Shown here: in pieces, positions 3,903 through 8,426 of the stretch
Position numbering within the stretch: position 1 is the first letter of the stretch
Layout of the letters: the number at the start of each line of letters is the position of its first letter
Origin: Lysobacter changpingensis
GTDB lineage: Bacteria; Pseudomonadota; Gammaproteobacteria; Xanthomonadales; Xanthomonadaceae
DNA: 64,000 bases
Direction of reading: 5' to 3'
Assembly (NCBI RefSeq): GCF_017308985.1
Contig: NZ_JADWPE010000002.1
Span: 372,001 to 436,000, forward strand
Position numbers and translations under genes: made by a program
The notes under the pieces: model-generated
Databases searched by the model: none
What the model saw: only the letters and a program-made list of their open reading frames with translations
Told to the model about the DNA's origin: nothing

Positions 3903-5228
3903 CTAACTCGCCCAGGCCGCGTCCTCGTCTTCCTGCTCGGGCAACAGCGGACGCAGCGCCTCGCCGTGCGCCTGCACGAACAGGCGTTGCGCGTCGGCCA
4001 GCGGCAGGTCGACGCGGATGCGCCAGCCGTGTTCGTCGTGCTCCTCGCCACGCACCGCGCCCAGGTCGTGCAGGCGCGCGCGCAGCTTCGCCGCCTGCGG
4101 CGGCAGGCGCACTTCGCCGACGACGTGGCGCAGCTCCAGCGCTTCGGCGAGCGCCTGACGCAGCAGGTCCAGGCCCGAGCCGTCGCGCGCCGACAGCCAT
4201 ACGCGCAAGCGCCCTTCGGCCGGGCGGTCGATGCGCGGCGCGACCGCCTCGCCGTCGTTGCCGAGCCGGTCGATCTTGTTGAACACCAGCACCTGCGGCA
4301 GATCGCCCGCGCCGATGTCCTTGAGCACTTCGTCGACCTGCGCGATGCGTTCGTCGCGCAGCGGATCGGCGGCATCGACGACATGCAGCAGCAGGTCGGC
4401 CTCGCGCGCCTCGGCCAGGGTCGAACGGAACGCGGCGACCAGTTCGTGCGGAAGATCGCGCACGAAACCGACGGTGTCGGCCAGCACCACGCCGCCGCCG
4501 GACAGCTCGATGCGCCGCACCGTCGGGTCCAGCGTCGCGAACAGCTGGTCCGCGGCATAGGCTTCCGCGCCGGTCAGCGCGTTGAACAGGGTCGACTTGC
4601 CGGCGTTGGTGTAGCCCACCAGCGCCACGCGCGGCAGTTCGCTGCGCACGCGCGCGCGACGCATCTGGGTGCGCTGGACTTCGACCTTCTCCAGCCGCTT
4701 CTGCAGCTGCTCCAGGCGCTTCTGCAGCAGGCGGCGGTCGGTTTCCAGCTGGGTTTCGCCGGGACCGCGCAAGCCGATGGAACCGCCGCGCTGGCGCTCA
4801 AGGTGGGTCCAGCCGCGCACCAGTCGCGTGGCCATGTGCTTGAGCTGGGCCAGTTCGACCTGCAGCTTGCCGTCATGGCTGTGGGCGCGCTGGGCGAAGA
4901 TGTCCAGGATCAGACCGGTGCGGTCGACCACGCGGCGCTGAAGCGCGCGTTCGAGGTTGCGTTCCTGGCCGGGCGACAGCGGATGGTTGACGAGGATGAG
5001 GTCGGCGCCGGTCGCATCGGCCGCGGCCTTCACCTCTTCCAGCTTGCCGCTGCCGATGAGCATGGCGGCGTTGGGGCGGTCGATGCGCGCGGTGAGCACC
5101 GCGGCGACCGTCGCGCCCGCGGAACGGGCGAGATCGGCGAACTCCTCCAGCAATCCCTCGTCCGGCGGACCGCCGGCATGGGGTTGGATCAGGAGGGCGT
5201 GCTCGCCTTTGCGGGATCGTTCGAACAA
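3903..5228 (-). CDS. hflX: Ribosome-rescue GTPase HflX
   Basis: HflX is a ribosome-associated GTPase that splits stalled 70S ribosomes. The protein has the N-terminal HflX domain (FERSRKGEHALLIQPH), a coiled linker rich in Gln/Arg/Leu, and a G domain with P-loop GYTNAGKS, DTVGFV and NKID motifs. Homologues begin immediately before FERSRKG, and here that position is a TTG codon at 5228, giving 441 residues. An ATG at 5288 would add 20 unrelated residues and start just downstream of a strong hairpin, so TTG is preferred though not proven. The gene follows hfq. Confidence 0.9.
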   Translation of the reverse strand: MFERSRKGEHALLIQPHAGGPPDEGLLEEFADLARSAGATVAAVLTARIDRPNAAMLIGSGKLEEVKAAADATGADLILVNHPLSPGQERNLERALQRRVVDRTGLILDIFAQRAHSHDGKLQVELAQLKHMATRLVRGWTHLERQRGGSIGLRGPGETQLETDRRLLQKRLEQLQKRLEKVEVQRTQMRRARVRSELPRVALVGYTNAGKSTLFNALTGAEAYAADQLFATLDPTVRRIELSGGGVVLADTVGFVRDLPHELVAAFRSTLAEAREADLLLHVVDAADPLRDERIAQVDEVLKDIGAGDLPQVLVFNKIDRLGNDGEAVAPRIDRPAEGRLRVWLSARDGSGLDLLRQALAEALELRHVVGEVRLPPQAAKLRARLHDLGAVRGEEHDEHGWRIRVDLPLADAQRLFVQAHGEALRPLLPEQEDEDAAWAS

Positions 5229-5752: not shown

Positions 5753-6727
5753 TCAACGCCCGGCCGGTCCGCCGGGCGGTCGCATGAAGGCCGACAGCAC
5801 CGCCTCCAGCGCGTCGCGCTGGACCAGTGGGTCGAACCAGAGCGCGTCGAGTTCCCCGCGCAGCCAGGTGAGCTGGCGCTTGGCGAGCTGCCGGGTGGCG
5901 TACACGCCGCGATCGCGGAACTCCGCGGCCTCGGTATCGCCCTCCAGGTGCTCCCACGCCTGCCGGTACCCCACCGCGCGCAGGGCCGGCAGGTCGAGCG
6001 GCGCCGGATGGTCGCGCAGCTGCGGAATCGCCCGCAGCGCACGGACTTCGTCCAGGAAGCCATCCGCCAGCATCAGGTCGAACCGCCGCGCGATGCGCTC
6101 GTGCAGCGTCGCGCGATCGGCCGGCGCCAGGATCAGCCTGAGCACCCGCACCGGCAGGCGCGGCGGTGGCGGCTCGCGGCGCCAGTCGCTGATGGTGCGG
6201 CCGGAGAGGCGGAACACCTCCAGCGCCCGCTGGATGCGCTGCGCGTCGGTGGCGTGGATGCGCGCGGCGGCCTCCGGGTCGATGCCGGCCAGTTCGGCAT
6301 GCAGCGCCGTCCAGCCGTGGCGTTGCGCCTCGGCTTCCAGCTGCGCCCGCACGCGGGCGTCGGCCTCGGGCATCGGCGAGAGGCCGCGCAGCAGCGCATG
6401 GAAATACAGGCCGGTGCCGCCGGCGAGGATCGGCAGGCGCCCGCGCGTGAGGATGTCGTCCACCGCACGGCGCGCGTCCTGCGCGAACTCCGCCGCCGAG
6501 TACGGCTGCCACGGCTCGCGCAGGTCGATCAGGTGGTGCGGCACGCGCGCCTGCTCCGCCAGCGTCGGCTTGGCCGAACCGATGTCGAGCCGCTTGTACA
6601 CGAGCGCGGAATCGACGCTGACGATCTCGCCGCCGAAGCGTTCGGCCCAGTCGAGCGCGAGCGCGGTCTTGCCCGAGGCGGTCGGGCCCATCAGGGCAAT
6701 CGCGATGGGGCGCGTGTCGGCGGGCAT
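5753..6727 (-). CDS. miaA: tRNA dimethylallyltransferase MiaA
   Basis: MiaA transfers a dimethylallyl group to N6 of A37 in tRNAs that read codons starting with U. The 324-residue protein has the P-loop GPTASGKT (residues 14-21), the [16 protein letters not shown] region that binds tRNA/DMAPP, and the conserved QRI and RRFDLM segments near the C terminus. The ATG at 6727 fits the family N terminus; the frame remains open upstream into the repeat array, but that 77-codon extension resembles no MiaA. The Shine-Dalgarno is weak. The gene lies directly downstream of the unusual repeat block, which may contain its promoter. Confidence 0.95.
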
Positions 6728-6788
6728 GTCGGAGGCGGCAACTCGGGGGCGTAGCCTCGCACAGCGGCACCGCGCGCGAAACTCGCCG

Positions 6789-6902
6789 CTTTCCACACAA
6801 GGTGTGGAGAACCACTGGGGCAAGGCTGTTGATAAGACGCCGCAGCCCAGACGTCGCAAGCGTTCCCGGGTGAATGGCGAAATTTTGGCCAGCCCGCCGC
6901 GG
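6789..6902. repeat. Array unit 1 (most diverged)
   Basis: The unit starts CTTTCCACA (6789-6797) and TGTGGAGAA (6803-6811). It then parallels unit 4 through GACGCCGCAG, CGCAAGCGTT, CCGGG and an AAATTTTGGCC core. It is shorter than the rest and lacks the TTCGGCATC tail. Confidence 0.65.
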
Positions 6903-7085
6903 CTATCCACACCGCCTGTGGACAAGCCTGCGGACAGCGGTGTGGAGAGTCCCCGCATCGCTCGCAGTCACGGGGCTTGCCGCAGGTTTGGACAAAAAAT
7001 CACCACACATTCTTCTTGACGACGGCGTCCGTTTCGGCATCACCGCCCCATGCTCCGGGAACAGGTCCCGACGCCACAATCGCAA
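6903..7085. repeat. Array unit 2
   Basis: Box-like motifs are CTATCCACA (6903-6911) and TGTGGACAA (6917-6925). TCCACACCGC (6906-6915) is perfectly complementary to GCGGTGTGGA (6937-6946). The A-rich core TTTGGACAAAAAATCACC lies near 6987, and the tail ends TTTCGGCATC near 7040. Confidence 0.8.
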
Positions 7086-7257
7086 CTATCCACATCGCCT
7101 GTGGACAAGCCTGCGGACATCGATGTGGAGACGTGGCTGCACCCCTTGCGGTGCAAGCACCGCAAGGGGTTTGGCGAAAAACTGACCGCAGGAAACGTTT
7201 GACTTGCGCGTCCATTTCGGCATCGCGCCGCATCGCATTCGCGCACGATGCATTTCG
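7086..7257. repeat. Array unit 3
   Basis: CTATCCACA (7086-7094) and TGTGGACAA (7100-7108) are followed by the outer arm CGATGTGGA, which pairs with TCCACATCG. A perfect 13-bp hairpin (7141-7153 with 7158-7170, 4-nt loop) precedes the core TTTGGCGAAAAACTGACC. The tail carries TTTCGGCATC near 7224. Confidence 0.8.
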
Positions 7258-7405
7258 ATATCCACACCGCTTGTGGACAAGCATGCGGACATCGTTGTGG
7301 AGACGATGCCGCAAGCCTTGCAGCGCAAGCGTTTCCGGGATCTGGCTAGAAATTGACCACTCGAATCGCTTGACGGGGAGGGCGATTCGGGCATCGAAAC
7401 GCGCG
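7258..7405. repeat. Array unit 4
   Basis: ATATCCACA (7258-7266) and TGTGGACAA (7272-7280) are followed by CGTTGTGGAG, a CTTGCAGCGCAAG hairpin, the core TCTGGCTAGAAATTGACC and the tail TTCGGGCATC near 7395. Confidence 0.75.
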
Positions 7406-7526
7406 GTATCCACACAAGCTGTGGACAAGCATGCGGACAGCGGTGTGCGTATCGCGTCGCAGCCCTTGCGCCACAAGGCGCGCGGCATGTTTGATCAAAA
7501 AATCGCCACGCGGCGATGTCGCGATG
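7406..7526. repeat. Array unit 5, abutting folP
   Basis: GTATCCACA (7406-7414) and TGTGGACAA (7420-7428) are followed by a CCTTGCGCCACAAGG stem-loop and the core TTTGATCAAAAAATCGCC. The unit runs up to the folP stop codon at 7527; the tail motif TTCGGCATC seen in other units continues inside folP at 7546. Confidence 0.7.
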
Positions 7527-8426
7527 TCAATCGTCGTCGGGCCACTTCGGCATCGACGGCGCCGGCTTCGCGCGCGGCATCGCCTGCGAGGCGATCGCGT
7601 TCCACACCTTCAGCGCGTCGACGGTGGCGGCCACGTCGTGCACGCGCAGCAGCTTCGCGCCGCGTTGCGCGGCGATCAGGTGCGCGGCGACGGAACCGGT
7701 CGCGCGGTCGCGCGGCTCGTTGCGTCCGGTGATCTCGCCGATCGTGCGCTTGCGCGAAAGTCCCGCGAGCACCGGAACGCCGAGTTCGGCAAAACGCTCC
7801 AGCTGCGCGAGCAAGGCGAGGTTGTGCTGCGTGTTCTTGCCGAAGCCGAAACCCGGATCGACGACGATCTTCTTCTTCGCGATGCCGGCCATTTCCGCGG
7901 CGAAGATGCGCTCGGCGAGGAAGCGGTGCACGTCGGCGACGACATCGTCGTAGTGCGGCGCCTCCTGCATCGATCGCGGTTCGCCCTGCATGTGCATCAG
8001 CACGACCGGCACGCCGAGCGCGGCGGCCGTGTCGAGCGCGCCTTCGCGGCGCAATGCGTAGACGTCGTTGACCAGGCCCGCGCCGGCCTGCACGGCGGCG
8101 CGCATCACTTCGGGTTTCGAGGTGTCGATGCTGATCGGCAGCGAGGTTTCCTTCGCCAGACGTTCGATCACCGGAATCGTGCGACGCAGTTCTTCCTCGA
8201 CCGGTACGTCGGCCGCCCCGGGCCGCGTGGATTCGCCGCCGATGTCGAGGATGTCCGCGCCCTCCTCGGCCAGCTTCAGGCCGTGCGCCACCGCGGCCTC
8301 GAACGTGTCGTGCGCGCCGCCGTCGGAGAACGAGTCCGGCGTGACGTTGACGATGCCCATGACGCGCGCGCGATCCAGCGCGAGGGGACGGCCGTTGCAG
8401 TCGAGGATGGGCGTGGTGTCGAACAT
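7527..8426 (-). CDS. folP: Dihydropteroate synthase FolP
   Basis: FolP condenses p-aminobenzoate with hydroxymethyl-dihydropterin pyrophosphate in folate synthesis and is the sulfonamide target. The 299-residue TIM-barrel protein shows all signature strands: GIVNVTPDSFSDGG near residue 24, ILDIGGESTRPGA near 60, ISIDTSKP, LVNDVYAL, LMHMQG, VVDPGFGFGK and VLAGLSRK. The C terminus is Pro-rich and ends WPDDD. Downstream, the repeat array begins immediately at its stop codon, so the 3' end of the mRNA would run into it. ftsH lies upstream, in the order often seen (ftsH-folP), but here separated by 232 bp containing a terminator and REP elements. Confidence 0.97.
   Translation of the reverse strand: MFDTTPILDCNGRPLALDRARVMGIVNVTPDSFSDGGAHDTFEAAVAHGLKLAEEGADILDIGGESTRPGAADVPVEEELRRTIPVIERLAKETSLPISIDTSKPEVMRAAVQAGAGLVNDVYALRREGALDTAAALGVPVVLMHMQGEPRSMQEAPHYDDVVADVHRFLAERIFAAEMAGIAKKKIVVDPGFGFGKNTQHNLALLAQLERFAELGVPVLAGLSRKRTIGEITGRNEPRDRATGSVAAHLIAAQRGAKLLRVHDVAATVDALKVWNAIASQAMPRAKPAPSMPKWPDDD

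Follow-up and report, generated by a model that had tools for sequence, protein, structure and literature searches.

Located between miaA and folP in the window, the 64 kb stretch of DNA that was analyzed, is a tandem array of five units extending from 6789 to 7452. The steps from one unit start to the next are 114, 183, 172, and 148 bp, and over 72 nt the other four share 61-85% identity with the reference copy. The array is thus real, and these measurements confirm the sequence-only reading, which had described five diverged tandem units, 114-183 bp apart, with paired 9-mers separated by 5 bp. Every unit contains an inverted pair of DnaA-box-like 9-mers with a gap of exactly 5 bp. The unit opening is TATCCACA-n5-TGTGGACAA in four of the five units and TTTCCACA-n5-TGTGGAGAA in the first, and both members of the pair differ from the DnaA box TTATCCACA by a single base in four units, as had also been stated. 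Eleven 9-mers with one mismatch or less to TTATCCACA occur in the window, ten of which lie within 6803-7428. Relevant coordinates are provided in Table 1.

Table 1. Features of the miaA-folP region (window coordinates)
Feature	Position	Strand	Sequence or remark
miaA	5753..6727	-	flank, outside the element
Unit 1, miaA-proximal	6789..6835	-	box I inverted, 6789-6797; 114 bp to unit 2
Unit 1, box II	6803-6811		TTCTCCACA
Unit 1, position -12	6815-6823		TTGCCCCAG, weak
Unit 1, position -24	6827-6835		TTATCAACA
AT-rich dyad, units 1/2 spacer	6875..6891	.	TGGCGAAATTTTGGCCA; Fis-consensus-like with a mismatch
Unit 2	6903..6949	-	box I 6903-6911
Unit 2, box II	6917-6925		TTGTCCACA
Unit 2, box III	6929-6937		CTGTCCGCA
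Unit 2, -24 box	6941-6949		CTCTCCACA
AT-rich element, units 2/3 spacer	6987..7005	.	TTTGGACAAAAAATCACCA
Unit 3	7086..7132	-	box I 7086-7094; box II 7100-7108
Unit 3, box III	7112-7120		ATGTCCGCA
Unit 3, -24 box	7124-7132		GTCTCCACA
AT-rich element, units 3/4 spacer	7170..7187	.	TTTGGCGAAAAACTGACC
Unit 4	7258..7304	-	box I 7258-7266; box II 7272-7280
Unit 4, box III	7284-7292		ATGTCCGCA
Unit 4, -24 box	7296-7304		GTCTCCACA
AT-rich element, units 4/5 spacer	7343..7359	.	TGGCTAGAAATTGACCA; exact Fis consensus 7344-7358
Unit 5	7406..7452	-	box I 7406-7414; box II 7420-7428
Unit 5, box III	7432-7440		CTGTCCGCA
Unit 5, -24 box	7444-7452		ATACGCACA
AT-rich element, 3' of unit 5 in window numbering	7490..7508	.	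TTTGATCAAAAAATCGCCA
folP	7527..8426	-	flank, outside the element

When read on the miaA-sense strand, which is the minus strand of the window, each unit consists of a 9-mer at -24, 3 bp, a 9-mer at -12, 3 bp, and box II at position 0, followed by 5 bp and the inverted box I at +14. The 9-mers at -24, -12, and 0 share one orientation, head-to-tail, in each of the five units, and the array as a whole contains twenty in-register 9-mers in 664 bp. Box III, at -12, is degenerate, with CTGTCCGCA or ATGTCCGCA in four of the five units and the weak TTGCCCCAG in unit 1. The earlier description covered half of each unit. Its claim that most of the remaining bases vary between units holds only in part, given the further 9-mers in register with box II at distances of 12 and 24 bp; blocks of the spacers are conserved as well.

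The registers were scored with 90 distinct units from 26 loci, a set in which near relatives are not independent and which includes four single-site loci (L080, L097, L117, and L177, with the site away from miaA in L080 and L117). Out of 9 possible matches to TTATCCACA in direct orientation, the units average 7.98 at position 0, 5.38 at -12, and 5.03 at -24, whereas the average across all offsets is 2.02. In inverted orientation the highest average, 7.57, falls at +14. The selection pattern prescribed six bases in boxes II and I and so partly accounts for the maxima at 0 and +14, but not for those at -12 and -24.

The four orthologous five-unit arrays that were aligned (window, L049, L050, and L053) are 71-77% identical, and 150 of 180 columns are invariant in the boxes versus 267 of 550 elsewhere. 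Some spacer blocks are also invariant between species, and thus the boxes are not the sole conserved part. The spacing within the pair was addressed in 12 chosen genomes by a search for TCCACA followed by TGTGGA with gaps of 0-20 bp allowed. In 65 of the 75 listed pairs (77 in total), counted by hand, the gap is exactly 5 bp. A reversed control gave 64 hits versus 77, so the gap alone discriminates; the total number of pairs does not. The same test in the genome from which the window derives yielded seven pairs, six of them with a 5-bp gap (the five array units plus a site upstream of priA) and the seventh with a gap of 3 bp. Within this genome the exact-arm n5 pairs are confined to the array and priA, and a dispersed repeat was rejected on these data.

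That the array might be a decaying repeat or a cluster of structured RNAs with no role for DnaA is highly improbable. The copies do vary in length and number, and some arrays appear to have been recently amplified, as judged from 206-bp steps in L128, but the boxes have been kept while other sequence changes, and the exact-arm pairs of this genome occur only at the two places just named. An Rfam-type RNA was rejected, as no family matched above its gathering score in the window. The palindrome has one variable mirror position, and there, on the miaA-sense strand, the 90 units comprise 37 Watson-Crick, 38 G-U, and 15 unpaired combinations. A hairpin RNA was rejected on the 15 units that break a stem pair; this counter-evidence is weak. 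The suggestion in the sequence-only reading that the block carries structured RNAs accordingly finds no support.

The distribution of the array was surveyed in 80 miaA loci, the best 80 of 353 confirmed relatives, in which some contigs or flanks end early. The locus contains at least two n5 pairs in 14, one pair in three, and none in 63; because the last group has no such pair in the sequence examined, the array is dispensable at miaA. The copy number ranges from two (Lysobacter maris and Pseudoxanthomonas helianthi) to ten (L. antibioticus HS124), and the boxes change less than the remainder of the sequence. At least three array sites within 1 kb are found in all 11 other same-genus genomes searched, and folP and miaA flank the array in ten of these 11 (G078 fell outside the flank comparison). 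The two miaA-proximal units are separated by 114 bp in nine of the 14 loci and by 147, 183, 217, 307, or 428 bp in the others. Of 16 pairs picked at 112-117 bp, which include two genera with the pair near folP and away from miaA, 15 are 114 bp apart and one is 115 bp apart. In many array-less relatives folP and miaA lie within 270 bp of each other or are separated by a long ORF. By eye, the long ORF in the folP-miaA gap of L102, L103, L113, L114, L117, L124, L129, and L131 resembles a sodium/solute symporter, and the relatives with this ORF are without a multi-unit array.

With the array immediately upstream of miaA and single-core sites 120-380 bp upstream of priA, one might suppose that DnaA controls miaA transcription from the array, as had been suggested, or that of the folP-miaA operon. 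We regard this as improbable. No sigma-70-like promoter is present in 6500-7700, and the same interval contains two terminator-like sites, close to the shuffled mean of 1.1. Moreover, in two other genera (L168, L169, and L174), the paired element is positioned 0.1-0.2 kb from the end of folP and 1.2-1.6 kb before miaA. The paired element of L167 is likewise near folP, with miaA beyond the sequence examined. Finally, the folP and miaA matches are only 1-2 bp apart in some relatives. A miaA promoter was rejected on the absence of a sigma-70-like site and on the distance of the element from miaA in the other genera.

As the sequence-only reading had noted, the locus is far from dnaA, which in this genome resides on a separate contig (C6). 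The distances between the miaA-side array and dnaA, obtained by hand arithmetic from one-contig genomes, are 1.20 Mb in G105, 1.28 in G129, 1.39 in G223, 1.33 in G235, 1.42 in G229, and 1.71 in G173. Assuming equal replichores, the array in these six genomes is situated at 0.57-0.67 of the half-chromosome from dnaA. It is thus intergenic and at a conserved place with respect to both its flanking genes and dnaA. Dense DnaA boxes are also expected of a replication origin, but it is exceedingly improbable that the array is one. It has a GC content of 0.60, with no AT-rich unwinding element beside dnaA and dnaN, whereas the dnaA-dnaN gap of the same genome (dnaN assigned by eye) is AT-rich, with GC values of 0.46-0.51 in 100-bp windows. 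That gap also contains ATGGTGGTGATGGTG, which resembles GTGGTGGTGGTGAT, the oriC motif given for Xanthomonadaceae in PMC7174414. The array was rejected as a replication origin in favor of this oriC-like sequence. Twenty samples of G105 gave only a weak GC-skew signal.

DARS function is known mainly from Escherichia coli, in which two cores recharge DnaA; the first DARS paper is said to be that of Fujimitsu in 2009. A 9-3-9-5-9 frame is observed in the E. coli bioD-uvrB gap, which we take to be the place of DARS1, as TAATACACA-tgg-TTATCCACA-ggaat-AGTGGATAA, and in the rppH-mutH gap, the DARS2 region, as TTCTTCACA-act-CTATCCACA-gaaaa-GGTGAATAA. Because the same III-3-II-5-I frame is present in E. 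coli, each unit of the array can be described as having the layout of a DARS with an additional 9-mer in line. Indeed, II-5-I occurs in all five units, and the -12 9-mer is recognizable in four. As in the array units, the DARS1 core is intergenic and has box I inverted, and by our own arithmetic, with an assumed position for oriC, it is found at ∼0.66 of the replichore from oriC, which is similar to the place of the array. DARS1, however, is a single core, whereas the array consists of five in tandem, each with a weaker box III and with an additional -24 9-mer for which no clear counterpart was seen in DARS1.

The 35-mer of the rppH-mutH frame is exactly the DNA between the homology arms listed for replacing DARS2 boxes I-III in PMC4585315, and a cluster beginning with TCTTACACC was on this basis rejected as the DARS2 core. 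Its spacing is that of the array units. According to PMC5742627, boxes I-III are spaced identically in DARS1 and DARS2, with box I opposite to II and III. DARS2 additionally has an accessory region with Fis and IHF sites and with in-line low-affinity boxes at 2-3 bp intervals, an arrangement that favors head-to-tail assembly (PMC8682772). It differs from the array in that it has one core of boxes I-III and proven IHF and Fis sites, which in the array are only suggested. The DARS2 core is conserved among E. coli-related species according to PMC4245941, and the Lysobacter-type sites are not orthologous to it by place.

The AT-rich dyad between units 1 and 2 can be aligned across 16 loci, two of which have the exact Fis consensus as quoted in PMC4245941. 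In the array that consensus gives two strand hits at one palindromic place versus 1.13 expected, which is near chance. Two IHF-site matches were found versus 0.14 expected, but these are weak, each with two mismatches. The genes for IHF-alpha and Fis are present in the genome, with scores above the curated cut-offs. The AT-rich stretches are perhaps bound by Fis or IHF.

A DnaA-box cluster outside oriC with possible bending sites also brings to mind datA, which stimulates the hydrolysis of DnaA-bound ATP, and the E. coli datA stretch is, on our understanding of its place, ∼6-7 kb from miaA. The gene order differs, and this closeness is treated as a coincidence. The inverted pair in that stretch, TTATTCACA-agc-TGTGGATGA, has a 3-bp gap rather than the 5-bp gap of the array. 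Moreover, datA has one IHF site, on which it depends (PMC4585315), and its biochemical effect is the opposite of that of a DARS. It is thus improbable that the array is a datA-like element.

The genome contains one further core, located upstream of priA (G000:C8 74417-74439, or about 4418-4440 of locus L039), which is DARS-like. Among the matches listed, TATCCACA-n5-TGTGGATAA recurs across the family. The perfect form, TTATCCACA-n5-TGTGGATAA, is represented by 24 distinct copies in the fetched loci (those of L042 and L043 being near-identical), and all 24 lie upstream of priA by 120-380 bp. The patterns used to find these sites did not include box III. Nevertheless, on the priA-sense side 23 of the 24 have TNCACA at -12, the remaining one ending in CACC, whereas none of the 24 has it on the opposite side. 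Across the class, CACA-n3-TTATCCACA-n5-TGTGGATAA with two mismatches or less is found in 295 of 369 genomes; the reversed control had no match among the genomes listed. In nine of 30 fetched class loci, priA is within the locus, and those nine come from seven other gammaproteobacterial families. None of the 30 gave a match to dnaA, a dnaN ORF, uvrB, mutH, or rppH. The E. coli priA-rpmE gap is without such a core. As a candidate for oriC the single site was rejected, given that priA adjoins it and that the oriC-like region is at dnaA-dnaN.

In L005, L042, and L051, the stretch from the core to priA contains, as seen by eye, a palindromic or nearly palindromic GTGA-N6-TCAC that resembles a CRP/Clp site. 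Two genomes have two near-palindromic inverted pairs ∼360-370 bp apart (G150:C1 1718083/1718444 and G212:C1 1985549/1985920), and these doublets are perhaps a doubled priA site. Genomes G336, G476, and G543, from other gammaproteobacterial families, contain six or seven inverted pairs with one mismatch or less, mostly dispersed, and in G476 two identical pairs are 401 bp apart (G476:C1 2379301 and 2379702).

The C-terminal stretch of the DnaA from this genome, which we take to be domain IV, shares 65 of 90 aligned residues with its E. coli counterpart and retains GRDHTTVLHACR, and on this account DnaA very probably binds the array boxes. The evidence supports the general type of explanation proposed earlier, namely that the block titrates or binds DnaA, and the layout points more specifically to the E. 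coli DARS core. The chief rival is a titration reservoir, in which the boxes would soak up DnaA and leave its bound nucleotide unaffected, in the manner of the six clusters outside oriC in Bacillus subtilis. The likeness to those clusters is at the level of clustering only, and both DARS1 and DARS2 are absent from that organism (PMC13220808). Twenty in-register 9-mers in 664 bp would suit a reservoir, as would the free variation in copy number between species if the total number of boxes is what matters. Fixed spacings of 3 and 5 bp, however, are needless for titration. What has been kept nonetheless is the 5-bp gap, the registers at -12 and -24, and the opposition of boxes I and II, and the priA site is usually one core with box III. 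Titration is therefore disfavored and, in our judgment, unlikely. From the box layout we infer ADP-DnaA reactivation rather than plain titration. On balance, we lean toward the view that the five units are DARS-like cores arrayed in tandem, with full DARS function, and of a type belonging to the Lysobacter-type Xanthomonadaceae.

If the array does function as a DARS, DnaA would bind the boxes of each unit, and the opposed II/I pair would hold two ADP-DnaA molecules head to head, leading to faster release of ADP as in E. coli, where boxes I and II support such dimers (PMC8682772). The in-line boxes and the AT-rich stretches, possibly with Fis or IHF bound, would assist assembly. The resulting apo-DnaA would reload with ATP and thereby favor initiation at oriC. 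Several cores may raise the reactivation capacity or make reactivation cooperative, and recharging would take place at a locus about 0.57-0.67 of the replichore from dnaA.

No report of a DARS in Xanthomonadaceae or beside priA, and none of a tandem multi-core array or of a family-wide priA-linked core, was found in searches of an open-licence library. The copy variation among close relatives suggests a multiplied switch for replication timing. Tentatively, and with somewhat less confidence than not, we propose that Lysobacter-type bacteria multiplied the DARS core, reaching ten units at a single locus and, in the genome G173, a total of 13 n5 pairs, tuning ADP-DnaA recharging by copy number, and that the priA core is the ancestral gammaproteobacterial DARS, which is absent from the priA-rpmE gap of E. 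coli. Core number that varies between close relatives provides a natural dosage series for relating DARS copy to initiation timing. The presence of the priA core in this family and in seven others suggests that DARS-like sites predate the E. coli loci and are more widespread, and the core offers a testable site in other bacteria.

Additional n5 pairs were observed away from miaA. A second five-unit array is present in the 5.9 Mb genome of G173 (L163 3271-4044, or G173:C1 5589770-5590544), ∼57 kb from its miaA array. As judged by eye, three tandem copies in L165 (2914-3210) lie near a response-regulator-like ORF, a pair in L172 (2486) lies near a transporter/kinase-like ORF, and a pair in L173 (2516) lies near ORFs of both types. 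In L166 (2633-2814), two pairs 161 bp apart are positioned upstream of LolA-like and RarA-like ORFs, likewise assigned by eye.
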